Source: Candidatus Peregrinibacteria bacterium
GTDB taxonomy: Bacteria > Patescibacteriota > Gracilibacteria > UBA1369
DNA length: 38,378 nucleotides
Reading direction: 5' to 3'
NCBI GenBank assembly: GCA_020851415.1
Contig: JADZCU010000032.1
Coordinates: 1-38,378 of the forward strand
The notes under the pieces were generated by a model that made no database searches, had not been told where the DNA came from, and saw only the letters and a program-made list of their open reading frames with translations. The translations under genes were made by a program, and so were the position numbers. This document shows, one piece after another, positions 557 to 22,982 of the stretch. Within the stretch, counting starts at the first letter, position 1; each line of letters begins with the position of its first letter.

Positions 557-2065
557 TTACGCAATAGAACTAACATCCTTAGGACCATATTTCACCGCGT
601 AACGGGAAACATTTGGCGTCTCTTCAGGACTCTTATAATCAGGATTTTTTTCCTTAGGGTTTACAATTGAAACGGCGCCATTTTCCACTCGTACCTGATA
701 TCCAATATAAGTATCCTTGTGGACAAATTTTCCGATGTTATATTCAGAAATAACCTTTTTCATTGTTGAAAGTTGTTGCTCGAATCCCTTAGTACCAACC
801 CCATTCGGAGGCAGGAAATAAGCCATAAGTGTATGAGCAAGGTCGTCCATACCCTTTTTCAATTCAGCTTTCTTTTCCTGAGCAGATCCTTCAACTGCTG
901 TAATTGAACCTTGTGTTGGAGCAAGCACCATAACATCTTCCTTCTTATAAGGACCGCTCTTTACCTCTTTAACAACCGGTTCGCCTTTTTCATTCGTACC
1001 AGATTCAAGATAAACAACGCGTAAACCGTTAAGTCCTTTACGCACACCTGTAGCCACAATAACAGTTTCATCGGCACCTGTTTCTGCATTCTTTCTGGTA
1101 ATTTGTTCAGAACGCACAATAACTGTTGAACCAAGCGGTGCATCTTTAGAATCAATCCAGGCAAGTTGTTTTTCCAAATCTTTTTGGTTACGTTCCAAAC
1201 CTTTTTGATCAATCTCTTCCTGAGATTTGAACTTAAATTCAGGTTGGCTCTTAACATTATCTTCAAGTGCAAAAACCCTGGTAATAGCTTCCTTCTTCAT
1301 GCCTTCTTTTGGCTGGAAATTAACGTTAACGCGCACCCATTTTTTATCCTTGCTCATTTCAACGTCAAAAGATTCACCATTTTGACCATCTTCCAAACGA
1401 AGTACACCGGCAACCAAACCCTTTTTCAAAATGGATCTATCTTCGGGCGAAAGTTCTTTTGCGCCGTTTGCAATTTTATCAAGTACTTGCACAAAATTGC
1501 TCTGTTCCTCCGCAATTACATCCTTTTTTCCATCAACCTTTGCTGGAGCCGGTTTTGCCGCCTCCGCCTTTTTCGCAGCATCTGCCTTATCAGCTGCAAC
1601 ATCAGGCTTAGCTGATCTCCCTCTAGGTGTATATTCCAGACCTGCCATTGGGTCACCAGGCAGAGCCTTCTCTTTCGCCGCCTTAGATGCAGAATCAAGA
1701 TTTGCAAAAATTGCATCCACCTGTGCCAGAGTCGCTTCAATCACAGCCTTTGGCTTTTTCTGTGCAGCTTCAAGAGTCTTAACCGTTTCACCGAGCTTGG
1801 TAAACTGCTCCTGAATAGCAGCAGGAGTCCCACTTGGAAGCTTCCCTTTTTCATCTGCTTTACCATAATGTTCCTCAATATTACCTCTCTCAGCCTTCGC
1901 ATCTTCTAATGCGACTTTTGCCTCAGCCATAAGCTGCTCAGTAGATTTTGGTTGACCCTCTTTTGCTTTTTCAGAAGCGTCATCCGGTGGTTTTTCACCA
2001 GGATTAAAAAACACCAGTCGTGGTGAAACCAAATCAGATGAAAGAAGTGAACGACAATTTTTCAT
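557..2065 (-). CDS. RxVF-motif large protein with possible SH3-like segment
   Basis: A 502-residue protein of unknown function. It begins MKNCRSLL and carries PRLVFF at residues 15-20, the N-terminal motif shared by six proteins of the window. Residues 40-140 are a charged coiled coil. Residues 140-180 are an Ala/Lys/Pro-rich linker. Residues about 185-285 are mixed alpha/beta, with a SFDVEM strand followed by a lysine-rich stretch. Residues 310-385 are beta-rich (STVIVRSEQ, RVVYLESG, EDVMVLAP) and could be an SH3-like barrel. There is no conventional signal peptide. The start is supported by the A-rich leader TTAAAACAAAAA just upstream, which recurs before two other RxVF genes, and by a strong promoter. 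The gene is expressed separately from the 3264-18022 cluster, because femX and its own promoter lie in between. Confidence 0.75.
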   Translation of the reverse strand: MKNCRSLLSSDLVSPRLVFFNPGEKPPDDASEKAKEGQPKSTEQLMAEAKVALEDAKAERGNIEEHYGKADEKGKLPSGTPAAIQEQFTKLGETVKTLEAAQKKPKAVIEATLAQVDAIFANLDSASKAAKEKALPGDPMAGLEYTPRGRSAKPDVAADKADAAKKAEAAKPAPAKVDGKKDVIAEEQSNFVQVLDKIANGAKELSPEDRSILKKGLVAGVLRLEDGQNGESFDVEMSKDKKWVRVNVNFQPKEGMKKEAITRVFALEDNVKSQPEFKFKSQEEIDQKGLERNQKDLEKQLAWIDSKDAPLGSTVIVRSEQITRKNAETGADETVIVATGVRKGLNGLRVVYLESGTNEKGEPVVKEVKSGPYKKEDVMVLAPTQGSITAVEGSAQEKKAELKKGMDDLAHTLMAYFLPPNGVGTKGFEQQLSTMKKVISEYNIGKFVHKDTYIGYQVRVENGAVSIVNPKEKNPDYKSPEETPNVSRYAVKYGPKDVSSIA

Positions 2066-2105
2066 AAATATTTTTGTTTTAAGGAATGTGTAAATTATTC
2101 ACATA

Positions 2106-2134
2106 ATTATAACATAAAAACCCAAACCTTTCAA
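2106..2134 (-). promoter_or_regulatory. sigma70-type extended -10 promoter for 557-2065
   Basis: Read on the minus strand, TTGAAA (2129-2134), a 17-base spacer and TATAAT (2106-2111), with TG one base before the -10. It predicts a leader of roughly 35 bases. The stretch ending TGTTATAATTA is nearly identical to that of the promoter at 9234. Confidence 0.75.
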
Positions 2135-2206
2135 ACTATTCAGTCGGCATTGCCCCTAAAGGAAAAAGGCGATATGGTACAGTACCAGAGCCAATAAAAG
2201 TCATTT

Positions 2207-3253: not shown

Positions 3254-3263
3254 TCTCCAAAAA

Positions 3264-6200
3264 CTAATAAATAGAACTCAAGATTGCAGCATCAGCAGCG
3301 TCAGGTTTCTTCCCTTCAGGCGCCGCTGCAGGTTTTCCTCTATACTCCCGAAGTTTACTTACCAGACTTGCAAAGTTTAAAGCACTTCCCGATTCAGACG
3401 TGCCGTGGCCGTTCACAATATAAACAATCGTTCCGTCATTCCCCACCCACATATTTACCATCACATTATCCGGATGTTTTGGATTATTTCCGCCGCCCCA
3501 ATCCAGATAAACCTGCACCACCTCATTAAACTCAATATTCATCTTCACCACCCTGCCGATGACCTTTTCCATCTCAGGTTTGCGGAAAGAATAGTAGCTG
3601 CTGATCGCCTGCCACGTAATCTCCTTTGATGTCTCAGGTGTTTCAATAGCCGTGTGTTTGGTTCCCTCCGCCCATTTCTTCAAATGGATCATCTGTCTCA
3701 TGAAAGAATCAAAATCTTCAGCGGCACCTTTACGAGTTTCTTCACCGTAAATACCAATGTTTTCACGGCCAACAGTATAAAGAATTCTACCATGCGGCAG
3801 AACTTCAATATCAATATCCGGATCCGGATTATTCCAGTCAAACTCCAAATAAAACTTATGTGGCTCCTTATCCTTGGGATAAATTTCATCAACACCACCG
3901 GTTTGCTCAACATAATCCTTATACGCCAACTCGTTCCCCACCGTTAACTCCATAATTCTCTGGTGAATGAAGCCCTTGTTCAAAGCATTTGCCGCCTCTT
4001 GAATATTCGGATACTGAAAAACTCCGTTCGGATAACGGAATTCAAACTGATTGCCATTTTGAATCAAACGGCAAGGCAGCGTTCCATTATTAAAACGAAG
4101 ATTAAACGACGCACCGTCGGGATCATTCCCGTGCGTAACCATCGCAAGAAGCGCATCCGCATATTCCTGATAAATCGTACCCAAAAATCCAAGTTCAATC
4201 ACCGGCTTAAATTTCTCCGCTGGAGCAGCCACAGGAGCCACATCAACATCGCCTGAAGGAATCTTCTCATACTTGCCAATATACTCCCACATAGGAATAA
4301 ATTTCGAACTATAGGCACTCTGCAATTCAGCCATGGAAGGTTTTTTTGCAAAAACCAACCCCGAAGCCGCAATCCCTTGTTGCAGCAAAACATTCAACCG
4401 TTCAGCATCGCTGCTAGATAATTTTTTACCCACATATTTTTGCATAAGCGTACGATCAACATCATAGTTACCGGTACTCTTAATGCCCGGAGAATCCGGA
4501 TTAAGTGGTTTATCAGTAATTTCTCCCAGTCCATAAACAATATTTCCTGTTCCAGGTTCGGTAAATTCACGCAGATTATGTGAAACCAAAAACTGGTCAA
4601 ACTCCTTAGCCTCAGGAGAAGTATCTTTCGCGCCACCGCTGATAGCCGGAGCAACAGCCAGTTCCAATTGTGATTGATCAACCCAAATCTCTTTATCCTC
4701 AAATTTCACTTTCACAAAAACCGTATCGTTAATCTGTTTCGCTTTGGCGTTTACATCAACCAAAGAAACCTCAGTTCCACCCTTCATTTTGCCCACAATA
4801 GCGCCATTATCATCACGATAAGCCGCCTCAGAAATATTCGGTGAAACCACTAATTTATTATTCTTAAATCTACCGTCAACAGACTGTGCCTTACTCCATT
4901 CACTTTGATAAATATCTGTTCCGGCGGGAACCTTCTCTCCTGGTTTTCCCGGGGCTCCCCCTACGGGAACCGTAGCTCCAACGCCTTTTTCAATATCGCT
5001 GAGTCGGGAATTGGTGTTCTCAAGTTCATCACTGACAACACTCACAACACTGACATGTTTAACGTAAGTAGAGAGCGGAGTAGTATCTTCTACCCCCAGG
5101 GACTCCAGTTGTTTTTGAGCGGCAGCAAGACGTAATTGCATATCGGTAAACTCCTTCGGATCAAACTGACCCGATGAAGCTGTCTTCTCTTTTAATTGTT
5201 GAACTCTTGCTCCCACCGCGGTCATTCGGTCAAAAGTTTTTTTCATCAAATCCGGAAATTTTGCTGCAGCCTCCTTAGCCGCAAAAGTTTCAGCGGCAAT
5301 TATCAAAGGATCATGTCCCAAATTTACGGTACTATTATCAAGCGCCAAAACCTGCTGAATAATCGGGTTCTGATATTTAAGATCCAGAGCTCTGCTGGCA
5401 CTCATGGCATCATCAACAAACTTTTTATGATGCTCCCTGGCCGTCATACTCATCTGTTCCACCTTACCAAGTTCACCCTGCCATTCATCCGGCGTTTTAA
5501 TTTTCGAAAAAAGACGAAGTTGAAATTTCCCCTTCTCTACGCGGCTACGTAAAGCTGCATCGGAATCACTTTCATCAGAAAATGTCCCGGTTTTTTTTTG
5601 AAAACTCGGATCAACGTGAAAATTATAATCGGGCAGACCGCTTTGCAGCATACTTTTAATTTCACCGTACAAATATTGACGATATTTTTCCGCCTGCCCT
5701 GCATCTTTAAAATGCAAATCGGTGAGTTTCAAATAACCCACAAAAAAACCGGTCATTTCCGGAGACAATTTTTTATCACTCGAGTCCCCATCAGCCTGCT
5801 CCATGGCAATGCCGTTTTGAGCCAACATATCCACGTAAGGCTTCATACTGAATGTGTCCAACTTAAGCATCAAATCACTTTCATCAACAGAAGAATCAAC
5901 GGAAGAATTATCATAAGCTTTCTCCGCAAGGCCGTTCAACAAATCCGCATGCGAAGATTTATTCGCCTCATCATAACGTTTCATTGCGGCCAAATATCCT
6001 GAAAAAAGAAAACGCGTTCTGCCAAAAGAATCATGAATTCCCGTACCTTCATAATCCTGAATCTTATTCGCTTTATTCTCCGGATCACTCTTCTCCAGTG
6101 CCCATTTCCGCGCCGCCTCAAAACTTTTATACCTTGGATCTTCCGGCATACTTTCAAGCAAAAGCTGCATTCGCATCTGACGACTTCGTTGCAACGCGCG

Positions 6201-6440
6201 GCTTTTACCAATGTCGCGGCTCTCTTTCAAAACCTTAAGTTCCTGAAGCAAAAGTTGTTTGTCTTCTTCAAGACGCACCAACAAATTTGCTTTTCTCTCA
6301 GGTGAGTATGTTCCGGTTTCAATCCGTTTTTTTTCCTTGTTATAAGCCTCAATAACAGTGTCAGCAGTAATTTTCTCAGGTTCCGCCTGGATCTGAGTTT
6401 CAAGAATTTCTATCGGATTTTTTTCTGCTGTATCCGCCAT
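3264..6440 (-). CDS. giant modular protein with SH3-like domain and three C-terminal alpha/beta repeats
   Basis: A 1058-residue protein of unknown function. It is the one large member of the cluster that lacks the RxVF start; it begins MADTAEKNPIEILE with helical, charged sequence. Residues 1-510 are mainly helical and coiled coil. Residues about 513-600 look like a bacterial SH3 domain (NKLVVSPNISEA, GGTEVSLVDV, VFVKVKFEDKEIWVDQSQLEL). The C-terminus holds three related units at about 775-832, 861-925 and 970-1036. Each has two or three strands, a Gly/Asn turn, a further strand (GRILYTVG, GTIVYIVNG) and a helix (DFDSFMRQMIHL, NFASLVSKLREY). There is no signal peptide or clear membrane span. 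It starts 10 bases after the 6451-8823 gene, so it is co-transcribed with it, and it ends the operon facing femX. Confidence 0.75.
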   Translation of the reverse strand: MADTAEKNPIEILETQIQAEPEKITADTVIEAYNKEKKRIETGTYSPERKANLLVRLEEDKQLLLQELKVLKESRDIGKSRALQRSRQMRMQLLLESMPEDPRYKSFEAARKWALEKSDPENKANKIQDYEGTGIHDSFGRTRFLFSGYLAAMKRYDEANKSSHADLLNGLAEKAYDNSSVDSSVDESDLMLKLDTFSMKPYVDMLAQNGIAMEQADGDSSDKKLSPEMTGFFVGYLKLTDLHFKDAGQAEKYRQYLYGEIKSMLQSGLPDYNFHVDPSFQKKTGTFSDESDSDAALRSRVEKGKFQLRLFSKIKTPDEWQGELGKVEQMSMTAREHHKKFVDDAMSASRALDLKYQNPIIQQVLALDNSTVNLGHDPLIIAAETFAAKEAAAKFPDLMKKTFDRMTAVGARVQQLKEKTASSGQFDPKEFTDMQLRLAAAQKQLESLGVEDTTPLSTYVKHVSVVSVVSDELENTNSRLSDIEKGVGATVPVGGAPGKPGEKVPAGTDIYQSEWSKAQSVDGRFKNNKLVVSPNISEAAYRDDNGAIVGKMKGGTEVSLVDVNAKAKQINDTVFVKVKFEDKEIWVDQSQLELAVAPAISGGAKDTSPEAKEFDQFLVSHNLREFTEPGTGNIVYGLGEITDKPLNPDSPGIKSTGNYDVDRTLMQKYVGKKLSSSDAERLNVLLQQGIAASGLVFAKKPSMAELQSAYSSKFIPMWEYIGKYEKIPSGDVDVAPVAAPAEKFKPVIELGFLGTIYQEYADALLAMVTHGNDPDGASFNLRFNNGTLPCRLIQNGNQFEFRYPNGVFQYPNIQEAANALNKGFIHQRIMELTVGNELAYKDYVEQTGGVDEIYPKDKEPHKFYLEFDWNNPDPDIDIEVLPHGRILYTVGRENIGIYGEETRKGAAEDFDSFMRQMIHLKKWAEGTKHTAIETPETSKEITWQAISSYYSFRKPEMEKVIGRVVKMNIEFNEVVQVYLDWGGGNNPKHPDNVMVNMWVGNDGTIVYIVNGHGTSESGSALNFASLVSKLREYRGKPAAAPEGKKPDAADAAILSSIY

Positions 6441-6450
6441 GAATTACAAA

Positions 6451-8823
6451 CTAGGAAGCTTTGGAATCTGACTCACCTTTTTTGCCGGCAACTTTTTTCC
6501 CAGGCTTTTCTTTCGGTGCTATTTCAGGAACATCCAATCCAAAGCGACCCTTCACAATAGGTGAAGCAGCCACGATTTTACCCTGATATTTGCCCTGATC
6601 ATCAGCAGTTACCTCAATAGTCATGTCACGATGTCTGAATGTTAATTTGCCGTTTGGTTGCACCAGGCCAGCAGGTAAATCTGCAACACCCTCATTGACT
6701 TTATCCTGTGCATCTTGAGGTGTATACCCTGCCTTAGGTCGAGGCATTTTAGCAACATCAGACACAATTTTAATAACACGTTTTTTCACTTTAGGCGGAA
6801 CTTCTGCCGAAGCAGAAGCAACCTCAACAGCAGGTTTCGGTGCATCTGGATTTGGCGCTGGCTGTTTTGGAGCACCTTCGTCCGGCTTACCCTTTGGTGC
6901 GTCAGGTGCTTTTTTATCTCCACCCTGTGCAACCGGTTGGCCTCCGGTTCCTGAGCCTTCTTTTTTCGGAGCCGGTTTTGGAGCAGGAGCATCTCCACCT
7001 TTAGCTGCAGGTGCCTTGGCACCACCGCCGCCGGTCGCTTTTTTGCCTTTGGATTTTTCGTCATCCTTTGGTGGCTCTTCAACTTTTGGTTCCTCTTTTT
7101 TCTTGGCAGATTCCAGTTGATCCAAAAGATCAGCAGGTTTAACAACTTTAGTCTGCATAATAAGACGCACGGCATCTTCATGCTCCTTTTCAAGCTTATC
7201 CAGTTCTTCCTGAGGTACGGTTTTGCCGCTGTATCTCAAAAGAAGTGCATTTTGTCTGGCAACATGTTCGGTATATTCATCATTAATTGCCTCGCCCACT
7301 TCACCTTTTCGTTTCATTACGCCTGTCAGGTACTCCTTGTAGTAAGCAACAAAGTCCATCTTTACGGTTTTACCATCTTTCACAACTTCAACTTCTTTGC
7401 CGCCATAATTATAATCAAGTCCACGAATTAATCCGGACTGTGCATAAAGAAATTTCGCCGGCAACTTACCTTTTACATCGCCATAAATTTCACGGCCTCC
7501 AACGATTTTTGTATAATCAAGGTCTTGAGCCAATTTCTTGAAATCAACATCACCACTTTCAGCTCCCATCATTCCCAGAAGAACTTTTTTCACCATCGCA
7601 TCATATTTTTTTGGATCCGGTTCTGCGGCTAAAGCACCTCGCAAATGCCATTCAATGGCACGCAATCTATCGCCATTATCCTTGTTATTATAATTTAGTT
7701 GGCGGGTAACACGTTCAATAACAGAACTAATCAGAGTGTCACGAGCTTCTTCAGGAGCTTCATGCTTGGTAAATACTTCCGGGGCATTTTCCTTTGCCCA
7801 CATAGTTGGAGAAGGCACCTCTTCACCTTTATCAATAGCCGCTTTTACAGCTGCTTCGTACTGGTCGAAAAATTTAGCATTTTTATCACCCTTAAAAATC
7901 TCATTGGCAGCATTCATTTTACCAACAACTTCACCAAAAAGCTTTGAGCCTTTGTTAGTATCAAAATACATTGTATCCAAAACGTAACGGAAACTACCTC
8001 TTCCAGTCTCAGTTCCAAAAACTTTATCCCAGGTAAAATAATTAATCCCATTGTCTCCTTGGTTCTCTTTAAAAGCCTTAAGTTTCGCCATTGCAGCTTT
8101 TGGTCCAAGTTCCACATAAGTATTTTGAAGCATTTCAGCGGTCGCTTCCAAAACATTATCTTTATTCCAATCTGGTCCGCCAGTATTCACAATACCACCA
8201 TCTGCCTTTTTCTCCCAACGCGGCATAGCCACACCTTTTTGATATTCAAGCCCTATACCCTTCATCAATGTAGTAACACTACTCCATGACGCTTCTTTTT
8301 CCTGATCAGCATACTTGCTGTCAATCATCTGCGCCTGCAAAGATTGCTTAAATTCATCCGCAAATTTTTTGGCTGCCTCCTCACGTTTTGTATTAGCATC
8401 ATTAAATTTCGTTTCCAGTCTTCCCAAGGCACTTTTCCGCGCCTCGCCAAGAGTTTTACGCAAAGCGCCGTCTTTTGACTCAAGATCAGCTTTTTCAGCA
8501 ACAAAAGTCGCCTTTTCTGCCTCAAGTTTTTTTGCTTGCGCAGAGCCTTTTGGAAGCGCGGCAATTTTTGCATCAAGATCTTCAATCTTTTTCTGTGCGG
8601 CAGCTTTTCTTTCAGAAACTATACCTTCAATAACACCATTGGTTACCAGAACGGCGTTATCTCGTATGTCTTTGAAGTATAGATTTGTTTCAGAAGTTTC
8701 TGCATCCTTTGCAGTTTGTTCAAAAACAGCATCAAAAGACTTATCAAAATTTTCATTCTCAAAAACAAAACGTTTTTGAAGCGAAAGTGTGTTGTACGAA
8801 TTGAAGCAAGAAAGTATTTTCAT
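6451..8823 (-). CDS. RxVF-motif large protein
   Basis: A 790-residue protein of unknown function, starting MKILSCF with KRFVF at residues 17-21. Residues 25-160 form a long Lys/Glu/Ala coiled coil. Residues 160-570 are mostly helical with a folded look (W, Y and F spread through). Residues about 575-680 are a Pro/Lys/Gly/Ala linker (many PKP, KGGD and APKP). Residues 690-790 form a small alpha/beta C-terminal domain (KVNEGVADLP, KLTFRHRDMTIEV, QGKYQGKIVAASP). No signal peptide or catalytic motif is recognised. It follows the small gene 8844-9203 by 20 bases and precedes the 1058-residue gene by 10. The leader TTAAAACAAA lies three bases before the ATG, as in two sister genes. Confidence 0.75.
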   Translation of the reverse strand: MKILSCFNSYNTLSLQKRFVFENENFDKSFDAVFEQTAKDAETSETNLYFKDIRDNAVLVTNGVIEGIVSERKAAAQKKIEDLDAKIAALPKGSAQAKKLEAEKATFVAEKADLESKDGALRKTLGEARKSALGRLETKFNDANTKREEAAKKFADEFKQSLQAQMIDSKYADQEKEASWSSVTTLMKGIGLEYQKGVAMPRWEKKADGGIVNTGGPDWNKDNVLEATAEMLQNTYVELGPKAAMAKLKAFKENQGDNGINYFTWDKVFGTETGRGSFRYVLDTMYFDTNKGSKLFGEVVGKMNAANEIFKGDKNAKFFDQYEAAVKAAIDKGEEVPSPTMWAKENAPEVFTKHEAPEEARDTLISSVIERVTRQLNYNNKDNGDRLRAIEWHLRGALAAEPDPKKYDAMVKKVLLGMMGAESGDVDFKKLAQDLDYTKIVGGREIYGDVKGKLPAKFLYAQSGLIRGLDYNYGGKEVEVVKDGKTVKMDFVAYYKEYLTGVMKRKGEVGEAINDEYTEHVARQNALLLRYSGKTVPQEELDKLEKEHEDAVRLIMQTKVVKPADLLDQLESAKKKEEPKVEEPPKDDEKSKGKKATGGGGAKAPAAKGGDAPAPKPAPKKEGSGTGGQPVAQGGDKKAPDAPKGKPDEGAPKQPAPNPDAPKPAVEVASASAEVPPKVKKRVIKIVSDVAKMPRPKAGYTPQDAQDKVNEGVADLPAGLVQPNGKLTFRHRDMTIEVTADDQGKYQGKIVAASPIVKGRFGLDVPEIAPKEKPGKKVAGKKGESDSKAS

Positions 8824-8843: not shown

Positions 8844-9203
8844 TTATTTTAATTTTTTTAATAATTTTTCAGCCGCAAACCTTTCTCTCTCCTCGGCGGC
8901 CGCAGCCATTTTGCGGTTAGGTTCAGCCGCATAATAGCGATCAATGGCGTGCGCTTCAGCGGTAAAATCTCCCATGATCTTTTTTTGTTCAACCGCAAAA
9001 TCATGAACAATACCAGAATCAGCAGCTTTTGCTTGAAGCAAAATTGCGTAAAGCGGTTTCAATAAAGACACATCCTTTTGTTCCAAACCATTGTACACGC
9101 GGTCTATTTCCGCTTTTGGAATATATTTTTTTGCCAATGAATTTTCAAAAAGCTCACGGAAAGCTTCCAAAGAAAATTCTGGTGATGCTGAAGCAGTTGT
9201 CAT
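8844..9203 (-). CDS. small helical partner protein
   Basis: A 119-residue, all-helical protein of unknown function. The N-terminal 60 residues (FRELFENSLAKKYIPKAEIDRVYNGL, then SLLKPLYAILLQA) resemble the two-helix start of the other small proteins of the locus. The rest is a charged Ala/Glu/Lys coiled coil ending LLKKLK. It is the first gene of a transcript that begins at the promoter 9234-9262 and continues through the 790- and 1058-residue genes. Its position immediately before an RxVF gene suggests that it is a dedicated partner or chaperone (inference). Confidence 0.7.
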   Translation of the reverse strand: MTTASASPEFSLEAFRELFENSLAKKYIPKAEIDRVYNGLEQKDVSLLKPLYAILLQAKAADSGIVHDFAVEQKKIMGDFTAEAHAIDRYYAAEPNRKMAAAAEERERFAAEKLLKKLK

Positions 9204-12200: not shown

Positions 12201-14676
12201 CTTCAGCCGCCTTAATATGTTTCGGTAATTTAGAGTTTGCAGCGACTTTCTCCGCCGCTTCAGCCCTCTTGGCTAGTTCCGCAGCGCGCTCCGCCTTGAG
12301 TCGATGTGCAGCATTAGCCGCCTGTTCGGCCTTTTCAAAACTTTGTACAACAGTACCGGATCTCTCTCCCAACTCGGCAACCGTCTTTGCCTCCACCAGA
12401 CCCTTCATGCCTGCAGAAGCGCCTTTGGAGAAATTAGCAATTTCAGCGGCCTGGCTTACTTCAGCACTTGTTTTCAAAAATCCTGGCTTCTTAAAAGCTT
12501 CAGCCGCAAATGTCCTAAAGAAGGTACTGGCTTCAGCAACACGACCGGTAAAAATTCCGGCCTTGCTTCCGGCAGCGGCAAGAACCTCGGCACGAGCCGC
12601 GGTAGACGTAACCTTTGCAGCTTGAGCCGCTTCGCCTCCAACAAACAATGAAGCAACATTCGCCAAAACTTTACCAATACCCGATCCAACATTTCCCTTT
12701 TCAAACTCTTCATACGAAATCAAAGCCTTTCCAAGCTCCTTCCATGCTTTACCGGCCAGTTCAGTATCGCCCACAGTTCCTTCTTTTGCATTTATAGTTA
12801 ACAGTGCCCCCAGACCTTCTAAAGTATCAAAAGGTTTTCCAACAACAGTACAAAGTCCGCCGGCCAGTTCAAAAAGACCACCGGACGCGCCTGTGAAAAG
12901 TGAAAGGACATTAGCGCCGAAACCAGCCGGATACTTCCATCCGCTTTCAATATCATAAGCGCCCTGTGTAGCCACATTACCCTGTTCAATAATCCACTTA
13001 CCAAATTTTGTCAGCCATTCACCGGGTATAGCTGCTATCTGGCCCACAGTGTCCTGATACAAATATTTCGCATTATTCCACATCACGCCAAAAACACCTT
13101 CTGTTTCAACTTTCACTTTATCCAGTTGTGAACAAGCCTTATCAAAAACCGAAAACGAAAGACTGTTTGCCAAACTCGCATCCAAAAGATGATTGTCTGT
13201 TTCTCTCTGGATACTGTCCAGATTCTTTAAATGATAATCATACTTATCTTTAACTCCTTCAATACATTCGGCATAAGCTTGCTTCTGTGTTTCCAAAACA
13301 AGAATCTGCTCCTCGGTTGAAATCATCGAAGGCTCCACAACCTTATCAATAGTGTCTCCGACAGTTCCCAGATCACTTTCCACCGCTGATTCTTCTTCAC
13401 TCATCGCAACGTCAACTCCCTTGGCTTTTTCAGCCGATTTATCCAGGTAAGTCGCGCCAACGTTGGCTCTTCTTTTTCTTTCCTGAACCTGAGCAAGTGC
13501 CTGATTGATTGCCTCCTTTTGTTCATCAGTCAGATTTGGCTCCTTCAGCATTTCAGCAAGAGCACTCTCTTTTTCCTTTTCAGCTTCGGACACTTTTCCC
13601 ACTGCAATTTTTCGTTGTTCAAGTTTTTTTGCAACGTTTGCAGGTGAATCATCCGCGTTCCGAAGTGTCTCCAAATCATCCTTCTTTTTACTCAGCGCCT
13701 TCTGATGCTCAACCAGTTTCAACTGTTGAGCTTTTAGTTCACCGTATCGCTTTTCATTTGCCTTGATTGCGTCTGCCTTCTCACCTTTTTGCTCTTCCAG
13801 TTTTTTAATCTCTTCATTGCGCTTTTTCAAAATAACACCACGGCGCGCCTGCATAACCCTCGAAATACTTTTTCCATATTTTTCGATTTCCTCTTTTTTC
13901 TTTTTATATTTACTTCTTTTTGATTCCATTTCATCTTTCAATTCTCTCAGTTCTCGCTGAAGTTTTTCTACCTTCTTGTCATCGTTACAATCAACACCCG
14001 GGAGTATTCCGGTTAACTTATCCCATGTGAGGGACGCTCGGTTGGAAAAGCCCTTTTTTGAGTCCTGATACTGCTGCAGGGTCTCATAAAAACCATTGAT
14101 ATCTCCCAAACGTTTTTGAACCGCCTCCTGAAATGAAGCATTCAAAACCGCATATTCCTGCATGTGGTCATTCAACTTTTCAATCGGGGTATCTTCGGGA
14201 AGTTCTTTCGGAATATTATCCAGCTTTGCCGGAGAAGCGTCCTTTAATTTCAAAATATCTTTGGCCGCTGCATTTCCCTCTTTAGCCGCCTGTTGGTCAG
14301 CTTCACTTGGTGTATATTTTTTCAAAATCTCATCTGTCTTATCCAGTACCTGTTTTTTGTATGCATCAAAAGCTTTCTTATCCAGAGTGCCGTCCTTCGC
14401 CGCCATATCCAAAGATTTCTGATAGTACTCATAGAGTCGGTCATACAGGTCGCCGGTAAATCTCCCACCGATCTTATCCAGTTTTCCTTTTACAACCGCA
14501 ACACGCTTATCAGATTCAGTCTTCACCTCTTTCAAAGCTTCAGCCTTGGTCTTTTTCTCCAGACTTGGTGGGGCATCTGTTTTGCTTTCTGCAGACGAAG
14601 CTTTGTTGTCGAACACCAGACGTCTCTGCGCAAAAATCAAAAACGCATTTCTCGTTTTAAGAAACGTTTTCATCAT
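9292..14676 (-). CDS. giant 1794-residue RxVF-motif protein with glycine-rich hydrophobic core and two QLDLF motifs
   Basis: The largest gene of the window; function unknown. It starts MMKTFLK with RRLVF at residues 18-22. Residues 30-450 are charged coiled coil. Residues about 530-690 are Gly/Ala/Trp-rich and moderately hydrophobic (GANVLSLFTGASGGLFELAGG, KVLANVASLFVGGEAA), recalling pre-toxin or membrane-insertion segments of large secreted effectors, although I see no toxin domain. Residues 690-900 are a very Ala/Glu/Lys-rich helix. Residues 900-1200 are helical and folded. Two copies of GEQLDLFT occur near residues 1298-1305 and 1327-1334. From about 1500 an acidic linker leads to a small alpha/beta end (LKVYSKSGNFTTVISL). 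The start overlaps the end of the preceding small gene by 20 bases, so the two are translationally coupled. The second Met (14673) is an equally good start. Confidence 0.75.
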   Translation of the reverse strand: MMKTFLKTRNAFLIFAQRRLVFDNKASSAESKTDAPPSLEKKTKAEALKEVKTESDKRVAVVKGKLDKIGGRFTGDLYDRLYEYYQKSLDMAAKDGTLDKKAFDAYKKQVLDKTDEILKKYTPSEADQQAAKEGNAAAKDILKLKDASPAKLDNIPKELPEDTPIEKLNDHMQEYAVLNASFQEAVQKRLGDINGFYETLQQYQDSKKGFSNRASLTWDKLTGILPGVDCNDDKKVEKLQRELRELKDEMESKRSKYKKKKEEIEKYGKSISRVMQARRGVILKKRNEEIKKLEEQKGEKADAIKANEKRYGELKAQQLKLVEHQKALSKKKDDLETLRNADDSPANVAKKLEQRKIAVGKVSEAEKEKESALAEMLKEPNLTDEQKEAINQALAQVQERKRRANVGATYLDKSAEKAKGVDVAMSEEESAVESDLGTVGDTIDKVVEPSMISTEEQILVLETQKQAYAECIEGVKDKYDYHLKNLDSIQRETDNHLLDASLANSLSFSVFDKACSQLDKVKVETEGVFGVMWNNAKYLYQDTVGQIAAIPGEWLTKFGKWIIEQGNVATQGAYDIESGWKYPAGFGANVLSLFTGASGGLFELAGGLCTVVGKPFDTLEGLGALLTINAKEGTVGDTELAGKAWKELGKALISYEEFEKGNVGSGIGKVLANVASLFVGGEAAQAAKVTSTAARAEVLAAAGSKAGIFTGRVAEASTFFRTFAAEAFKKPGFLKTSAEVSQAAEIANFSKGASAGMKGLVEAKTVAELGERSGTVVQSFEKAEQAANAAHRLKAERAAELAKRAEAAEKVAANSKLPKHIKAAEELRTLAHEYAAQASKAEEAAVLAKRAHEAAKTADDAIKSLQEIEKAKGPLSTEAVAATAKVENLLKEAQLAADAAQVAAEAVGGGGKLAAIFKYYGEKTLERLPGGTKAADRFATAEGAGAKGLAVAQGTAEVALKTAWETAKLGAKGVKFLGYDMPIGIVRYSTRLFRSIPQLTKLVLKQGVAEGSLRFARVSKALNVMEHEAENLGALRALWTEKVLGNENVVQGILKGIKEDKALAEAFKGTNFDDMAKLIKEDPSLMKLYEAHPQFHKIFEGRALIKFMEFDKQSAVSLSNIQDAAEVIFQFSAKDEQVARILDKIFEKGLYPKVAKASKAKKSPDAAKAEPATVEILPETKVEPIIDVTIKDGYARMRFEAEIHPHMIDDLMAGPEKKLVESFEAKHSADAVVDPARLARSLENEFEKIQFLPDRKIGEIKIKDTVFELKANGKGKIELYESGKADAITPAPKPVPVGGEQLDLFTPEGKPAYEPKGKAAPGAKAAEGEQLDLFTQKQLNLTAEEAAIEARAAATQDLLIDMRAGKVPTKYPSIIDDTLMSDRYFAGAQKPDVMMASLDRTINEALAAGKSEIMLDGLHAKTIESGYLSALRKRAANQGLEIGEFKITERVVGADKMYEVSAPVAKMKAAPSPVAGLSPELESILQQSQTYKFGRYLRGKIDNAKGLYKSLKSNPSEKTKLTLDKILKDNGVFVTKALGRGAFIHGTIEEQIASLEYAVVKIETLGEFPPDLTFPQEFLDWQQENEKPAEPPSDKPGNPLEVASANIESSPEDEEKIKLSADRALDKFRSKDPSGITVDALTAALNIELSTFDKKASKDVQTVRDGIKITIGAGGKKSYEGLQEWIEDLPSKKKVGQVYKAAFEHGMNPQYYVDLHKGAAFKDSAELQQLMVKDLQDQISPLVSGMNLTRELKVYSKSGNFTTVISLDKNVTVTVQDRWAEETFSRLANTAAGA

Positions 14677-14989
14677 GATGTGATTCGTTTTTTATTTCTG
14701 TTTTCAATTTTTTTAATTTTTTCTTGGCTCCTTTTTTAGCCTTACTCTGCCCAAACATCTCATAAACATTTTTGGAAAAATCTCCGTCCCTATCACAAAT
14801 TGCCCGGATATATTTATCCTGTTCAGCATGCGCCTGATCAAGGAATTTCATAAATTCCATAAGTCCGTCATTTGGCATTTTCAAAACCTGCTCATAACGC
14901 ACGGCTCGTTCTTCCGGTGAGAAAAACAAAAGCGAATTAAACTTCTTCAAAACCCGTTTCAGCAAATTTTGAGAGACATTCTTAGCCAT
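14657..14989 (-). CDS. small helical partner protein (possibly leaderless mRNA)
   Basis: A 110-residue protein starting MAKNVSQNLLKRVL. The pattern LLFFSPEERAVRYEQVL...GLMEFMKFLDQA matches the two-helix motif of the other small proteins, most clearly the 15076-15459 product. The C-terminus is strongly basic (KKGAKKKLKKLKTEIK) and could bind nucleic acid, membrane or the acidic giant partner. The ATG at 14987-14989 is preferred over a GTG one codon upstream. A TATAAT box ends six bases before the ATG, so the transcript probably begins at or next to the start codon. The gene overlaps the 1794-residue gene by 20 bases in another frame, which is strong evidence of coupling. Confidence 0.7.
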   Translation of the reverse strand: MAKNVSQNLLKRVLKKFNSLLFFSPEERAVRYEQVLKMPNDGLMEFMKFLDQAHAEQDKYIRAICDRDGDFSKNVYEMFGQSKAKKGAKKKLKKLKTEIKNESHHDENVS

Positions 14990-14995
14990 CACAAA

Positions 14996-15075: not shown

Positions 15076-15459
15076 TTAAAATATTCCCAAAAATTTCTTC
15101 TTTTTATCCGAACTACCCTGATTCAATCCGTTGATCAAACTTTCCGCCTCCTTATCGGTGGCTAGTGCATCCTTATCTTCCTCAGTCTGCAGCTCAACTT
15201 TTTTGAGTACATGCATAGACTCTTTTACATCCTTCACCAGTTCAACTTTCTGACTTTGAATTTCGCTCTCCTCCTTGTCAATGTCCGCATTCATTTTTTC
15301 CGCTTCCTCAAGAGCTTTCATGGCATCCATGATGTCCACATCGCTACTCTTTGCATATTTCTCGCGGATAGCCAAACGTTCATCCGAACTCATCAACTGA
15401 AAAAGCGATGAAGATTCGAGCGCCGAAAACAACTTATTGAGTAGTTCTTGTGAAGCCAT
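15076..15459 (-). CDS. small helical partner protein
   Basis: A 127-residue protein of unknown function. It begins MASQELLNKLFSALE and then shows LFQLMSSDERLAIREKYAK...DIMDAMKALEEAEK, the clearest form of the two-helix motif shared by the small genes here. Residues 60-115 are an acidic and basic coiled coil, and it ends in KKKKFLGIF, a short basic/aromatic tail. It lies 11 bases after the stop of the 494-residue RxVF gene, in the same transcript. It is probably soluble and helical; a partner role is inferred from position only. Confidence 0.7.
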   Translation of the reverse strand: MASQELLNKLFSALESSSLFQLMSSDERLAIREKYAKSSDVDIMDAMKALEEAEKMNADIDKEESEIQSQKVELVKDVKESMHVLKKVELQTEEDKDALATDKEAESLINGLNQGSSDKKKKFLGIF

Positions 15460-15470
15460 AAAAAAATAAA

Positions 15471-16955
15471 TTATGCTCCTATCTGCTGATCAGGTAAAAC
15501 TATATCTGGTTTCGCTTCTCTTAAGACAAATTTAATCCCGGAAATTTTATAAAGATCTGCGCGGTTCGCAAGTTTATTAATATTTGCCTTTGCTTTAGGA
15601 ATTTCCATTGTAAAGGCAACCAGCTGCCCTTCTACATTCAGTTTAACCGGCACATTCACTTGTCCGTCATTCGGAGCATCTGAAGCTAAAACACTTCGAG
15701 CAATCGAGTCTGCATTTATACCAAGCCTTCTATTCAAATCTCTCATCCCATCACGGCCAAACTGATTGGTAAGATATACTTTCAGGTTATCGTAACTGTC
15801 AAAATATTTTTTACCTTCTTTATCGACCTTCGGCTCACCAGGTTTTGGTTTTTCAGGTGCTTTAACAGCAACGGCATCAGGTTTTTTGGGAGCTTCTGGT
15901 TTCTTGGCGGGAGGTTTAACAGCAACGGCATCAGGTTTTTTGGGAGCTTCTGGTTTCTTGGCAGGAGGTTGAGCAGCAACAGCATCAGGTTTTTTGGGAG
16001 CTTCTGGTTTCTTGGCAGGAGGTTGAGCAGCAACAGCATCAGGTTTTTTAGGAGCTTCGGGTTTCTTAACCGGAGGTTTAACAGGAGCAGCTTCGGGTTT
16101 TTTGACTGGAGGTTTAGCAGGAGCAGCCTCAGGCTTCTTAACTGGAGGTTTAGCCGGAGGAGCTTCGGGTTTTTTGACTGGAGGCTTAGCAGGAGCGGCT
16201 TCCGGTTTCTTCGGAGTCTCGGGCTTCTTGCCGGCATCAGCCTTTTTCTCTCCAGCGCCATCAAGTTTTGCGTAACTTACCTGCGCATCACCAACCGCAG
16301 CTCTCAAGCCCATATAAGCATCGAACCATTCTTGCGCATTTTCACTCTTTGCATCGCGTAGCTTATACACACGTTGAATAGCGACATTTATTCTCTGACT
16401 CTGATCAACTGAACTGTTCCACTTTTCAACAAACGCAGGGTTTGAAGAGTTCGTATAAAGAAAATGTCCCTCTCTCAAACGCCAGTCGGTTAAGGATCTA
16501 TCAACCCCAAGAGCAGCATTTAAACCATCTTTTAAAAGATAACTCTGCAGTGCCTTCAACTCTTCAGGATTATGCAAAACACTCAACTGTTCCTGTTGTT
16601 GTAAAGCTGCTTCCAAACCGCTTTGCAAAGCAACGCGCAAAAATCGCACGCATTCTCTTCGCTTTTCTTCAACATTAACCTCCTTATCATCAAGTTTTTT
16701 CAGTTGCTCATACTTTTCTTTAAAAGCTTTTTGAGCCTCAGCAAGTTTTCCCTTGGCCTTTGGCCCCTTTTTCATTTCATCAATTTTACTTTTTGCCTGT
16801 TCTTCCTCCTTTGGATTTAACTTATCCACAGGTTCATCTTTGCCAGTTTCAGAGGGTTTAGCAGGTCCCGCTTCTCCTTTGGCTTCCACACCCTCCTTAA
16901 AAACCAGGCGCTTAGTTTTAAAGCCATCATCCGTAAATAGTCTGCACATTTTCAT
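15471..16955 (-). CDS. RxVF-motif protein with Lys/Pro/Ala tandem repeats
   Basis: A 494-residue protein, function unknown. It starts MKMCRLF and has KRLVF at residues 15-19. Residues 25-100 are charged coiled coil. Residues 100-240 are a folded helical region containing LTDWRLREGHFLYTNSSN. Residues about 245-370 are a tandem repeat of KKPEAPxKPP and KKPEAPKKPDAVA units, which would form an extended, positively charged rod much like wall-spanning linkers. The last 110 residues are a small alpha/beta domain (NVPVKLNVEGQLVAFTMEI). There is no signal peptide by the usual rules. The start is supported by the leader TTAAAACAAAA, six bases upstream. It sits between two small helical genes. Confidence 0.75.
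   Translation of the reverse strand: MKMCRLFTDDGFKTKRLVFKEGVEAKGEAGPAKPSETGKDEPVDKLNPKEEEQAKSKIDEMKKGPKAKGKLAEAQKAFKEKYEQLKKLDDKEVNVEEKRRECVRFLRVALQSGLEAALQQQEQLSVLHNPEELKALQSYLLKDGLNAALGVDRSLTDWRLREGHFLYTNSSNPAFVEKWNSSVDQSQRINVAIQRVYKLRDAKSENAQEWFDAYMGLRAAVGDAQVSYAKLDGAGEKKADAGKKPETPKKPEAAPAKPPVKKPEAPPAKPPVKKPEAAPAKPPVKKPEAAPVKPPVKKPEAPKKPDAVAAQPPAKKPEAPKKPDAVAAQPPAKKPEAPKKPDAVAVKPPAKKPEAPKKPDAVAVKAPEKPKPGEPKVDKEGKKYFDSYDNLKVYLTNQFGRDGMRDLNRRLGINADSIARSVLASDAPNDGQVNVPVKLNVEGQLVAFTMEIPKAKANINKLANRADLYKISGIKFVLREAKPDIVLPDQQIGA
15845..16220 (-). repeat. in-frame tandem repeat coding the Lys/Pro/Ala rod
   Basis: DNA repeats of roughly 36 to 54 bases encode KKPEAxPxKPPV and then KKPEAPKKPDAVA units. 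The left half (about 15850-16050) is nearly identical from copy to copy, and the right half has diverged. The near-identity suggests recent expansion, so copy number may vary among strains. The limits given are approximate. Confidence 0.75.
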
Positions 16956-17009: not shown

Positions 17010-17363
17010 TCAAGAAACATCAATTTTGTCCAAAGCATCCAGTAATTTCTCCGCTTCACTTTCAATATTTTTCTTATCATCTTCTTCAGCAATTTTAAGC
17101 TCTTCACGGTCAACTTTCTTCATTTCCTGCTGAATTTTTACCGCACTCTCCGCATAATATTTCTGTACATCAGGAGTTTGTTCAAGTTCATCAACTTCGC
17201 TTTCCAATAGTTTCAGTGTTCCGATAGCACGCAAAAGCTGATCATCGGAAGCATTGGAAAATTTTTTCAAAAGATCGGATTGTTGTTCCTCACTCAGCAA
17301 ATTAAATCCCTTCTGAATCTGCAGAAATGCAAAAAATTTCTTTTGGAGAATTGATTGAGACAT
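17010..17363 (-). CDS. small helical partner protein
   Basis: A 117-residue protein, all helical and acidic, of unknown function. MSQSILQKKFFAFLQ is followed by FNLLSEEQQSDLLKKFSNASDDQLLRAIGTLKLLE, the same two-helix pattern as the small genes at 15076 and 14657. Residues 60-115 are coiled coil. It lies between two RxVF genes: six bases after the repaired end of the 17370-18022 gene and 54 bases before the 494-residue gene. It is transcribed from the promoter at 18057. Confidence 0.7.
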   Translation of the reverse strand: MSQSILQKKFFAFLQIQKGFNLLSEEQQSDLLKKFSNASDDQLLRAIGTLKLLESEVDELEQTPDVQKYYAESAVKIQQEMKKVDREELKIAEEDDKKNIESEAEKLLDALDKIDVS

Positions 17364-17431
17364 AAATTATTAAGCCTTATTACCAGAATCAATTTTCTTT
17401 TCACTATCACGAAGATCCCCACGGAGAGCGG

Positions 17432-18022
17432 CTAGAGCACCATCAGCCGGCTTCTTATCAGGCTTTTGAGACCCCATGATACCCCCTGATCCTCAAGAAG
17501 GCCAGATCGCAGTGATGCAAGTGGTCCTTTCCCTTCATCACCCTGAGCACCCAAATCAGCGCGTAAAGTTGCAAGCGGGCCTTTTTCCTCCAGTTGTTGA
17601 TCAAGCCACGCTGTCAGAGAATCTGCCTCCTCTGGTGATAACGGCGTACCCTTTGAACGATCAGCAATAACCGAAAGTCTCTGATGAATCTTCTCAGCTT
17701 GAGCTGCCATCTGTTTGCTAACGCCATTGTTTTTCTCAACAGATTGCATAAATTTACGAAGCCTTTGGGCAAGTTTCACACTTCGGTCATCGCCCTTCTT
17801 CTCTAATTCATCAACCTTTTGCCACACACGTTCGTATAATTTTTTCCTGTTACCAGCATCAAGATAATACTCACTGGTACCCTCTTTTGCTGAGTCGTGT
17901 TTTTCAGCAACGTCTGCACTTTTCACGTCATCGTGCATGCCCTCTCCACCAGCAGCAAAAACTACCCTCTGAGCCGCCAATGAGAAGCGAAAATTGCCAA
18001 AGCATTTTTTTAAGAATTTCAT
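17432..18022 (-). CDS. RxVF-motif protein, apparently frameshifted at a run of five G
   Basis: The ATG at 18020-18022 (MKFLKKCFGNF, with QRVVF at residues 18-22) is preferred over an upstream Met at 18091, because the promoter -10 at 18057-18062 lies between them. The open frame gives 196 residues, function unknown. Residues 30-150 are charged and helical. The end holds repeats of GPLAxLRxxL (GPLATLRADL, GPLASLRSGL). After the run of five G at 17482-17486 the frame drifts and stops at 17432. A -1 shift at the run restores a third repeat (GALAALRGDL) and a stop at 17370-17372, six bases before the next ATG. Either a base was lost (mutation or sequencing), or the run is a programmed or phase-variable frameshift. 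Confidence 0.7.
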   Translation of the reverse strand: MKFLKKCFGNFRFSLAAQRVVFAAGGEGMHDDVKSADVAEKHDSAKEGTSEYYLDAGNRKKLYERVWQKVDELEKKGDDRSVKLAQRLRKFMQSVEKNNGVSKQMAAQAEKIHQRLSVIADRSKGTPLSPEEADSLTAWLDQQLEEKGPLATLRADLGAQGDEGKGPLASLRSGLLEDQGVSWGLKSLIRSRLMVL

Positions 18023-18056
18023 ATAATGAAGTTTATATATAAAAAGCCATCTATGA

Positions 18057-18084: not shown

Positions 18085-18129
18085 ACGGCAAAAAGCTGCC
18101 CGCACACTAAAATCCTTCGAATCAAGAAA

Positions 18130-18609: not shown

Positions 18610-18658
18610 ACGAAAACAAATAAATACCCTTATACTTTATACAGGCGCAGCCACCTCC

Positions 18659-19747: not shown

Positions 19748-19753
19748 ACAAAC

Positions 19754-19782: not shown

Positions 19783-19830
19783 AAAACATTAGAACATTTG
19801 ACTAGCCTGCTCTGGCTAATCAAATAAGCC

Positions 19831-20067: not shown

Positions 20068-20068
20068 T

Positions 20069-20335
20069 ATGACCCCTCGAAAATACAAATCACTTTATTA
20101 CATGCTGGAAGATATCAGCGATGGCCAAGAAAAAGGCTTTGCTGCAAATGTTATAAATATCGACGCAGTAGTAATGGGTGAAAACATAAAAGAGCTCGAA
20201 GAAGGCCTGGAAATGCTCATTGAAGATAGTAAACTGTCAAAAATTTCTACCAAAAATAAAATCGACATCGAAGTAGAATTAAAAAAGAGTGCCAACGGAA
20301 AATTAAGCGTAAAGAAAATATCCAAGAAGAAATAA
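20069..20335 (+). CDS. hicB: HicB-like antitoxin
   Basis: An 88-residue protein with the partial RNase H-like fold of HicB: KGFAANVINIDAVVMGENIKELEEGLEMLI matches the GFxAxVxxIxxVxxGxTxxEAxxxxxEAL pattern. It starts one base after hicA, so the two are coupled. No ribbon-helix-helix or helix-turn-helix DNA-binding domain is visible at the C-terminus; the tail is only lysine-rich (KKISKKK). If it autoregulates, it would need another mode of DNA binding. Function as antitoxin is inferred from the pairing. Confidence 0.78.
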   Translation: MTPRKYKSLYYMLEDISDGQEKGFAANVINIDAVVMGENIKELEEGLEMLIEDSKLSKISTKNKIDIEVELKKSANGKLSVKKISKKK

Positions 20336-20350
20336 TCCCGATCCCCTTCC

Positions 20351-21862: not shown

Positions 21863-21878
21863 CCGACGCGGCAAATCT

Positions 21879-22982
21879 CTATTGGAATGAGTAGCCCAGA
21901 CCCCCAACCGGCAAAATATGCAGGCCGTGACTATCCGCACTGAAAGTCTTACTACCGTGGACATCCAAATAAAAATGCCATCGTGGATTTAACTGAAGGT
22001 GTCCTCCGGCTACGAAAAAAACACCGGGTTTAAAATCAACCTTACTTCCATCAACAACCTGTACTCTCGGACTGGTACTTATTCTGGAGAATTGGCTGTA
22101 CGAAGCATCACCCAAAACACCGCCTCCAACGGCAACACTAAACGGTTTAAAAATTTTATAACCTACCTCAATTCCCGCGCCAACCTTCAAAGAGTAGGTA
22201 ACGGTATCAACAACTTGCGGCGCAGTTGAAGCAACCACGGAACTCACCTTAAATTCACCTTCAACAGGAAGAATGAACGCGATATAAGGTTTTTTAGAGT
22301 CGGTGAAAATATAGCGAAAATTTACTTCACCAGCATAAGAATCCGTATCACTTACTCTCCCGTGTTCTTTTTCAACATGAGACTGTGGAAGGAAAATACC
22401 TACCTCAAGATGTTTAAGTCCTTTTGCACTTTTTTTCTTATCCGGTTTTTCATCAGGTTTTGCCTTTGGCGCTGGTGGCACAGCAGGCTTTTCATCAGGT
22501 TTTGGTGCCGGTACGGCAGCCACGGCAGGCGCTTTTCTTGCTTCAGCAAGAACCTTATCCATTTCACTCATACCAAAAATTTTATTCGCATACAGTCGCG
22601 AAAAAGTAACAGTAACAACTGTTGGTGTCGGTGCCGGAAAACCTCCGGCAATTTTTTCTTTCTTTTCACTCTCGTTAGTTCGCACAATATTCACCGTATT
22701 ATCGGCCATGACGGTGAAAACATAGCTATAATCAATAGCGCCGCTCTTGTACGAAACAGAAAAAGAATCCCCTTTCAATTTATTGGCAAATTCAGATTTA
22801 AATCTTTGGGCAAGCTTACCATTTTCCGGATCATCAGGAGCATCAAGTGTCTTGCTGGCCGAAGAATCAGCCGGTTTCTTTTTCTCAGCTTCAGCACCAC
22901 CCGGCTTCTCATTTTTATCAAAAACAAATCTTTTCGGTGAAAAGAAACGTGAATCAAAGACAAAATGCGAACCAAAGATCAT
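21879..22982 (-). CDS. RxVF-motif protein ending in a beta-barrel-like domain
   Basis: A 367-residue protein starting MIFGSHF with KRFVF at residues 17-21, the same motif as the cluster at 557-18022. Residues 50-140 are a small alpha/beta domain (FSVSYKSGAIDYSYVFTVM). Residues 145-190 are a Pro/Lys/Ala linker (PKPDEKPAVPPAPKAKP). Residues about 195-367 alternate hydrophobic and polar residues in at least eight strands (HLEVGIFLP, GEVNFRYIF, PYIAFILPVEG, YSLKVGAGIEVGYKI, FSVAVGGGVLG, GVFFVAGGHLQL, WHFYLDV) and end GGLGYSFQ. This resembles outer-membrane beta-barrels of the OmpA/OmpW kind, which is odd in a presumed single-membrane lineage. It could instead be a soluble or cell-surface barrel. 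It is transcribed from 23032-23060. Confidence 0.75.
   Translation of the reverse strand: MIFGSHFVFDSRFFSPKRFVFDKNEKPGGAEAEKKKPADSSASKTLDAPDDPENGKLAQRFKSEFANKLKGDSFSVSYKSGAIDYSYVFTVMADNTVNIVRTNESEKKEKIAGGFPAPTPTVVTVTFSRLYANKIFGMSEMDKVLAEARKAPAVAAVPAPKPDEKPAVPPAPKAKPDEKPDKKKSAKGLKHLEVGIFLPQSHVEKEHGRVSDTDSYAGEVNFRYIFTDSKKPYIAFILPVEGEFKVSSVVASTAPQVVDTVTYSLKVGAGIEVGYKIFKPFSVAVGGGVLGDASYSQFSRISTSPRVQVVDGSKVDFKPGVFFVAGGHLQLNPRWHFYLDVHGSKTFSADSHGLHILPVGGLGYSFQ

Follow-up and report, generated by a model that had tools for sequence, protein, structure and literature searches.

A short N-terminal tag with the core R-x-[VI]-[FY] is shared by six large proteins encoded on the minus strand of a Candidatus Peregrinibacteria contig (JADZCU010000032.1, positions 1-38,378; hereafter the window, that is, the whole stretch of 38,378 nucleotides that was analysed). 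The tagged genes alternate with small genes whose products belong to a family of rod-shaped helical proteins. The tag is real and lineage-specific, and it is tied to this partner family; we regard the tag, its conservation, its association with the partners and its lack of a Sec-type hydrophobic core as established. The shared tag and the adjoining rod-shaped helpers point to an undescribed protein-targeting system. Our preferred reading, which we consider quite possible though a little short of probable, is a lineage-specific, Sec-independent docking or targeting tag that would act together with a rod-shaped adaptor on the cytoplasmic face of the membrane. Little is known about how Patescibacteria place proteins at their surface or affect other cells. 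The sequence-defined tag and the partner family allow candidate cargoes to be listed from Peregrinibacteria genomes, and if the tag is truly an address, this large lineage, still uncultured, would have a targeting pathway of a new kind.

The tagged proteins of the window and its genome

A sequence-only reading of the window had described six proteins with unrelated bodies and a common RxVF-type beginning, and both parts of this description held. All six open reading frames (ORFs) were confirmed at their coordinates, and in each 15-18 residues, many of them aromatic, basic or polar, precede R-[LFV]-V-F, which is followed by a linker. R, V and F are invariant across the six, and the proteins start with MK (n = 4), MMK (n = 1) or MI (n = 1). 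No mutual BLASTP match of the bodies fell below E=0.1; the best pair was 15471 and 9292 (E=0.25), and in the match of 17432 with 557 (E=0.40) the aligned part consists of the tags. The stretch after the motif had been called charged and rich in Asn, Gly and Glu. By eye it is a flexible-looking linker rich in Gly, Pro, Ala, Glu, Ser and Lys rather than Asn.

557..2065, minus strand: tagged protein of 502 amino acids (aa), with a helical region, a linker, an alpha/beta domain at ~282-391 and disordered ends in its AlphaFold2 (AF2) model; homologues in L033, L040, L041 and L214
2009..2065, minus strand: its tag, MKNCRSLLSSDLVSP-RLVF, R at residue 16; homologue tag RMVF in L033
6451..8823, minus strand: tagged protein of 790 aa; homologue L034:4270-8304 with tag RLVY (E=1.7e-4)
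8761..8823, minus strand: its tag, MKILSCFNSYNTLSLQK-RFVF, R at residue 18
9292..14676, minus strand: tagged protein of 1794 aa, its middle region, 582-680, being related to L164, a tagged protein of 1470 aa (E=2e-4)
14611..14676, minus strand: its tag, MMKTFLKTRNAFLIFAQR-RLVF, R at residue 19 counted from the first Met
15471..16955, minus strand: tagged protein of 494 aa with a Pro/Lys/Ala linker
16899..16955, minus strand: its tag, MKMCRLFTDDGFKTK-RLVF, R at residue 16
17432..18022, minus strand: tagged protein of 196 aa from the ATG at 18022
17957..18022, minus strand: its tag, MKFLKKCFGNFRFSLAAQ-RVVF, R at residue 19 from that ATG
21879..22982, minus strand: tagged protein of 367 aa, its C-terminal half resembling an outer-membrane-type beta-barrel by eye
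22920..22982, minus strand: its tag, MIFGSHFVFDSRFFSPK-RFVF, R at residue 18

For 17432-18022 the ATG at 18022 is preferred to the upstream TTG at 18091 given in the ORF list. The gene at 21879-22982 has no neighbour on the same strand within 300 bases. The six genes have A/T-rich leaders, and no Shine-Dalgarno-like sequence was seen by eye within 25 bases upstream of their starts.

As a bare DNA pattern (ATGA-N30-60-R-x-V-F, scanned over the whole genome) the motif lies near chance, with 52 matches vs 40 for the reversed pattern that served as control. Thirty of the 52 were examined as loci; 15 were in frame, and the only long genes starting with the motif were the six of the window. A position-specific profile was built from 31 tags (the six and 25 from relatives), and its null maximum was 9.8 bits over 4641 internal protein segments. 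The six window tags, which belong to its training set, score 23-28 bits. Outside the window we sampled 799,668 bases of the same genome (665 ORFs of at least 110 aa) on contigs that were not random, having been picked among those named in motif pattern searches. Five held-out tagged proteins were found in this sample, all above the null maximum:

L130:8946-10514, profile score 20.9
L133:5587-7008, profile score 19.9
L135:12252-12824, profile score 17.2
L135:6133-12219, profile score 12.5, motif RLTF
L164:13913-18325, profile score 22.9

The one false positive, at 12.8 bits, was the Sec signal peptide of a pilin-like protein, and L137 (8.9 bits) was excluded as within the null range. A twelfth tagged protein of this genome, L214:5511-7178 (RFVY), was reached via its partner. 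The sequence-only reading was to be dropped if the motif were no more frequent at N-termini of its genome than by chance; with the held-out profile matches it stands, although the bare pattern alone is close to chance. Chance N-terminal similarity was rejected on the held-out matches, the association with partners described below and the restriction of long in-frame genes to the six. Samples outside the locus from four other genomes (G079, G058, G068 and G009; 387 ORFs) contained no tag of at least 8 bits, which makes tags few per genome.

At the opposite end of the proteins, a C-terminal Ala occurs in 7 of the 12 tagged proteins of this genome, compared with 7.8% of 536 other ORFs, and homologues of 557-2065 end in SSIA, KATA, SATA, TATA or SAVA.

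Conservation of the tag across one order

The FemAB-like neighbour at 2207-3253 was used to locate the same locus in relatives, with gene names assigned by eye. It had a match at E<=1e-20 in 78 of the 89 genomes of the order, and ~5-40 kb were read from most of the relatives chosen. Tags conforming to a strict motif, R-[LFVMIY]-[VIA]-[FYW] (46 curated tags), were found in 26 of the 61 genomes with DNA read, the own genome included. All belong to one order, and they span seven families as labelled by the tool used (f1, f5, f7, f9, f13, f14 and f16). The motif is therefore kept in homologues, where its absence had been proposed as grounds for abandoning it.

With relatives included the core is wider than in the six, R-[LIFMVY]-[VIA]-[FY]. 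Large proteins in relatives carry RMVF, RFIF, RLVY, RLIF, RFVY, RIIF, RLAY or RFIY, and looser variants (RNVY, RLCF, REVY and RHLVY) occur in other genomes. Among 41 tags R is present in 41, followed by L, F, M, V, I or Y, then by V (24), I (15) or A (2), and then by F (28) or Y (13); the R lies at residue 6-23, with a median of 18. The 12-base sequences encoding this core are varied (40 distinct among the 41 tags) and use all six Arg codons, and selection therefore acts on the protein. Conservation at the DNA or RNA level was rejected on the same count.

Identity of tag and body was compared in nine homologous pairs, and the motifs align in all nine. Tag identity far exceeds body identity in three of them (86 vs 40%, 87 vs 37% and 71 vs 30%). 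Two others, both close pairs, have identical tags on bodies that are 71 and 89% identical. Plain paralogy, that is, one old family whose N-terminus is merely the slowest part and has no shared targeting role, would account for the shared body regions seen in some members (the 1794-aa protein with L164, and 557-2065, which aligns with L214). The six window bodies lack significant mutual similarity, however, and a conserved N-terminus on diverged bodies would still imply a common function for that N-terminus; we consider this explanation very improbable.

The same tags could be cleaved leaders, with R-x-[VI]-[FY] placed ahead of a processing site and removed by a dedicated protease. In many tags small residues and G or P do come after a short hydrophobic core (RLVF-MAG, RLAY-MAGE), but the residues after F/Y are variable, and close pairs also conserve the residues that precede the motif. 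The sequence-only reading had advised looking for a co-occurring protease, sorting or secretion gene; by eye, with no profile search made, no dedicated protease, shell or receptor gene was noticed beside the tagged genes, and processing of this kind seems improbable. A peptide deformylase-like gene is present in the locus (by eye).

The helical partner family and its locus

The small genes of the window, which the sequence-only reading had passed over, are as follows.

115..534, minus strand: partner, 139 aa, with a hydrophobic end segment where relatives end KKKKFLG[IL]F-like
8844..9203, minus strand: partner, 119 aa; AF2 helices at 12-20, 24-27, 30-41 and 45-118
14657..14992, minus strand: partner, 111 aa, overlapping the start of 9292-14676
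15076..15459, minus strand: partner, 127 aa; C-terminus ESLINGLNQGSSDKKKKFLGIF
17010..17363, minus strand: partner, 117 aa
3..188, minus strand: putative sixth partner, truncated where the contig ends (MAYYYPIQNEYLRKLVMLSESIHSL...); assigned by eye and from its position, which corresponds to L033:16318-16632 in G009

Large ORFs that adjoin a partner carry a strict tag in 32 of 74 cases vs 41 of 1803 other large ORFs. The first count is partly circular, which tells against it, as the partner alignment (A4) was built from partners beside tagged genes, and it includes L075:6975, probably a chance match. By eye, 15 of the 41 look like genuine tags; eight, glycosyltransferase-like, share a conserved GRYV[YF]E, and the remainder probably arose by chance. 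The cleaner figure comes from 20 neighbourhoods reached through partner matches outside A4, because those partners were not in the alignment: 9 of 19 adjacent large ORFs were tagged (p=3e-10, background 41/1803). These neighbourhoods include a second conserved site, beside what we take by eye to be dacA-cdaR, in the own genome and in family f7.

A4 holds 23 proteins of ~85-139 aa with an N-terminal pattern LxxSxxFxxLsxe, a charged middle and mostly a C-terminal E-x-[LI]-L-x-x-[LI]-[DNK]. The C-terminal pattern [DEQK]x[LI][LI]xx[LIMF] lies within the last 45 residues of 17 of the 23 members. Held-out partners carry it in 17 of 24 rows, which represent 23 distinct genes, and small ORFs of other kinds in 26 of 350. 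Basic-hydrophobic tails (KKKFGIF, KKKFLGLF, KKKFLGIF) occur on relatives of 115-534 and on 15076-15459; L033:16641, L040:6753 and L041:6670, which take the place of 115-534, end KKKFGIF or KKKFLGLF.

The AF2 model of the partner at 8844-9203 consists of three short helices and one 74-residue helix, with a mean predicted local distance difference test score (pLDDT) of 93.7. Foldseek returned three matches for it (best E=7.8), and in VIA-align two of the 8 chains compared reached Z>=2 (best 2.7). The partner profile had its best match in the PDB at E=0.005 (TA0743). No Pfam family matched more than one of the 23 partners (best E 0.0038), and NCBIfam gave nothing near its cut-off for eight proteins. 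A PADLOC run with nine proteins of the window yielded just two matches, both weak and both to the partner 15076-15459 (VakA 0.0023, PbeC 0.0036), and known defence genes were rejected on this result.

Partner profile matches at E<=0.01 occur in 85 of the 89 genomes of the order, of which the weak ones may be coiled coils. A phylum sample of 239 genomes held 16 with a match at E<=1e-6, all of the same class, and matches of at least 40 bits came only from the same order. Matches of ~30-37 bits in 250-300-aa frames, and those in other families of the class, were set aside as possible coiled-coil false positives.

Several observations weigh against the reading of tag and partner as one system. Four of the nine pairs lack a clear tag advantage (tag/body 60/61, 25/29, 41/27 and 28/25%), and mainly the core of the tag is kept in them. 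The FemAB neighbourhoods of G032, G041, G020 and G048 (families f7 and f9) are without a tagged gene, G041 and G020 having one elsewhere, and the G008 counterpart of a tagged G012 gene is without the tag. No tag could be recognised in certain large ORFs next to partners (L044, L060:2676, L074, L090:12897 and L215), some partners have no tagged neighbour (L216, L221 and L226), and some tags have no adjoining partner (21879-22982, L051:6287 and L133).

The locus itself lies between genes that we take, by eye, to be ftsA/ftsZ and those for FemAB, peptide deformylase, prfB, a flippase and RNase J. It contains a large gene without a tag:

3264..6440, minus strand: co-directional protein of 1058 aa without tag; its positional counterparts next to FemAB in G004, G012 and G001 carry a tag

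An untagged 1431-aa relative of this protein lies at 179953-184248 in G009 (L033/L034), and its C-terminal extension looks, by eye, like a hydrolase of the ChaN/TIKI type. Further along the window, 26739-31184 encodes a 1481-aa protein in which segments look FHA-like by eye; its positional counterpart in G009 (198156-202370) has weak similarity to it (E=1e-4). A Pro-rich ORF at 31250-32750 lies in a stretch of ~62-74% G+C with flanks of ~44-55%, possibly a foreign insert.

Cargoes, candidate functions and known pathways

Among 31 distinct tagged proteins, no Pfam family scored over its cut-off. The C-terminus of the L164 protein is kinase-like (Pkinase E=5e-4, below cut-off); at L164:18649-19912, beside this protein, lie a 216-aa ORF and another ORF with kinase-like sequence (Pkinase E=5.8e-6, likewise below cut-off). 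By eye, L135:6133-12219, like 21879-22982, contains outer-membrane-type beta-barrel-like sequence, and we know of no outer membrane in this lineage. The AF2 model of the 502-aa protein has a mean pLDDT of 63, and its tag, at a pLDDT of ~30, is disordered, as is the C-terminus. Its best Foldseek match was at E=0.019, with none at E<=0.001. In VIA-align its best Z was 6.8, to an Hsp70 (Ssb), a value that lies in the range usual for helical matches.

Tests against the Sec, Tat, type III and type VII pathways were negative. Over the first 35 residues the maximum 12-residue hydropathy is -0.07 to 1.35 in the 12 tagged proteins of the own genome; the medians are 2.81 for 58 Sec-like ORFs (defined by values >2.3) and 0.62 for 286 cytosol-like ORFs. 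A Sec signal peptide was rejected for these 12, which have no Sec-type hydrophobic core, as the sequence-only reading had held. In 31 genomes no TatC (positive in 11 of 14 controls), FliP/SctR (positive in 4 of 14) or YukC/EssB (positive in 1 of 14, B. subtilis) was found. On these results, together with the missing h-region in the case of Tat, the Tat, type III and type VII pathways were rejected. No LXG or WXG100 domain exceeded its Pfam cut-off in the 31 tagged proteins, and the scan of the 23 partners, with no family shared by two members, did not support one. The type II/IV-pilus ATPase is uninformative because it was found in 31 of 31 genomes.

The composition of the bodies bears on whether the cargoes leave the cell. 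Tagged bodies (n=50) are Cys-poor, with 56 Cys in 36,707 residues (1.5 per 1000), and the pooled values for ORFs of at least 300 aa are 8.5 per 1000 (57 Sec-like), 9.9 (434 cytosol-like) and 7.7 (45 K/E-rich cytosol-like). Their first 24 residues are not Cys-poor (16 in 1200, 13.3 per 1000). This contrast would suit export or effector delivery, with the tag as secretion signal, the partner as its chaperone and the cargoes leaving the cell by a route independent of Sec, for which the type IV secretion system (T4SS) of Patescibacteria is a possibility. Diverse cargoes such as L164 with its kinase-like domain and a barrel-like protein (by eye) also argue for it, as does a VirB4/TraG-type ATPase (P-loop_TraG at E<=0.001; one ATPase family, not the whole apparatus) in 80 of the 89 genomes of the order. 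The partners are also Cys-poor, however (6 Cys in 2637 residues), and the bodies of the 12 own-genome proteins are mostly cytosol-like in composition, with a probability of export of 0.08-0.65 from a classifier with a cross-validated area under the curve of 0.85. No conduit gene was noticed in the loci, and the position beside ftsZ and dacA-cdaR (by eye) would suggest core cell biology. No association of strong partners with the ATPase was seen (32/58 vs 2/5, p=0.65), in a comparison where only 5 of 63 genomes lack it. According to one review, what the T4SS does in Saccharibacteria is not known, and delivery of effectors has been speculated (PMC11665869); another paper proposes that the system imports macromolecules rather than exporting them (PMC12102498). 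Export of this kind is a real but doubtful possibility. The same degree of doubt attaches to a dedicated Sec-independent delivery route, in which the tag would be read together with an ExLLxxLD key of the rod adaptors and large Cys-poor proteins, kinase-like or barrel-like, would be placed in the envelope or in a neighbouring host cell.

Cytosol-like composition would fit an intracellular scaffold, in which the tag would fasten structural or regulatory proteins to an assembly in the cytoplasm, such as one at the division site, without any translocation. The neighbourhoods of ftsA/ftsZ and, at the second site, dacA-cdaR (by eye) favour such a scaffold, as do the helical bodies with P/K/A linkers and a kinase-like domain, which requires ATP. 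Membrane-type tails on some partners, the Cys-poor bodies and a barrel-like cargo (by eye) speak against it, and we judge it unlikely.

The preferred reading, a docking tag that works with adaptors at the membrane, would run as follows. The R-x-[VI]-[FY] N-terminus would mark a set of large, lineage-specific proteins in one order of Peregrinibacteria, tethered to its body by a flexible linker. It would work with small rod-like partners, often encoded next door, often with a C-terminal ExLLxxL[DNK] and in some cases with a basic-hydrophobic or hydrophobic tail. The tag may be a recognition strand for a common receptor, which could be the partner or else a hub by which the C-terminal end of the partner is read too. 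The partner would be an adaptor or chaperone at the cytoplasmic membrane face, and the cargoes would be collected at, or delivered to, the cell envelope. We infer binding, a membrane site and delivery, and the membrane step is proposed because of the hydrophobic tail of 115-534 and the basic-hydrophobic tails of its relatives and of 15076-15459. The dedicated system of the sequence-only reading gains support from a co-encoded partner family; its sorting, processing, encapsulation and beta-strand addition, for the last of which it cited a likeness to KLVFF, remain proposals.

Its remark that no described system carries this tag agrees with the literature searched, in which no description was found; subscription papers and preprints lay outside the search. 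The available parts of PMC4736985, PMC12102498 and PMC11665869 do not describe it.

Among known systems, a Tat signal peptide likewise has basic residues ahead of a hydrophobic patch, but it needs TatC and an h-region, neither of which was found here. Encapsulin and microcompartment targeting peptides also combine a short hydrophobic peptide and a flexible linker with diverse cargo; in our loci no shell gene was noticed by eye, and no shell search was made. The Patescibacteria T4SS (PMC12102498) could serve as a conduit, its VirB4/TraG-type ATPase being present in the same genomes, but no genetic link or association with the partner was found. The chaperone-substrate pairs of type III and type VII secretion also show a resemblance, and membership fails the tests made. 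Type III and flagellar substrates with class I chaperones share an N-terminal non-Sec signal of ~20 residues, diverse cargo and small adjoining partners. They differ in that FliP was found in none of the 31 genomes and in that the searches gave no clear fold match for the partner model. Type III signals are not known to have a fixed motif. Type VIIb LXG/Lap systems differ in YukC/EssB and in LXG, neither of which was detected here (the latter in Pfam), and the signal here is an N-terminal tag of ~20 residues; what they share with the present proteins is the pairing of large variable proteins with co-encoded small helical partners that bear a C-terminal motif.

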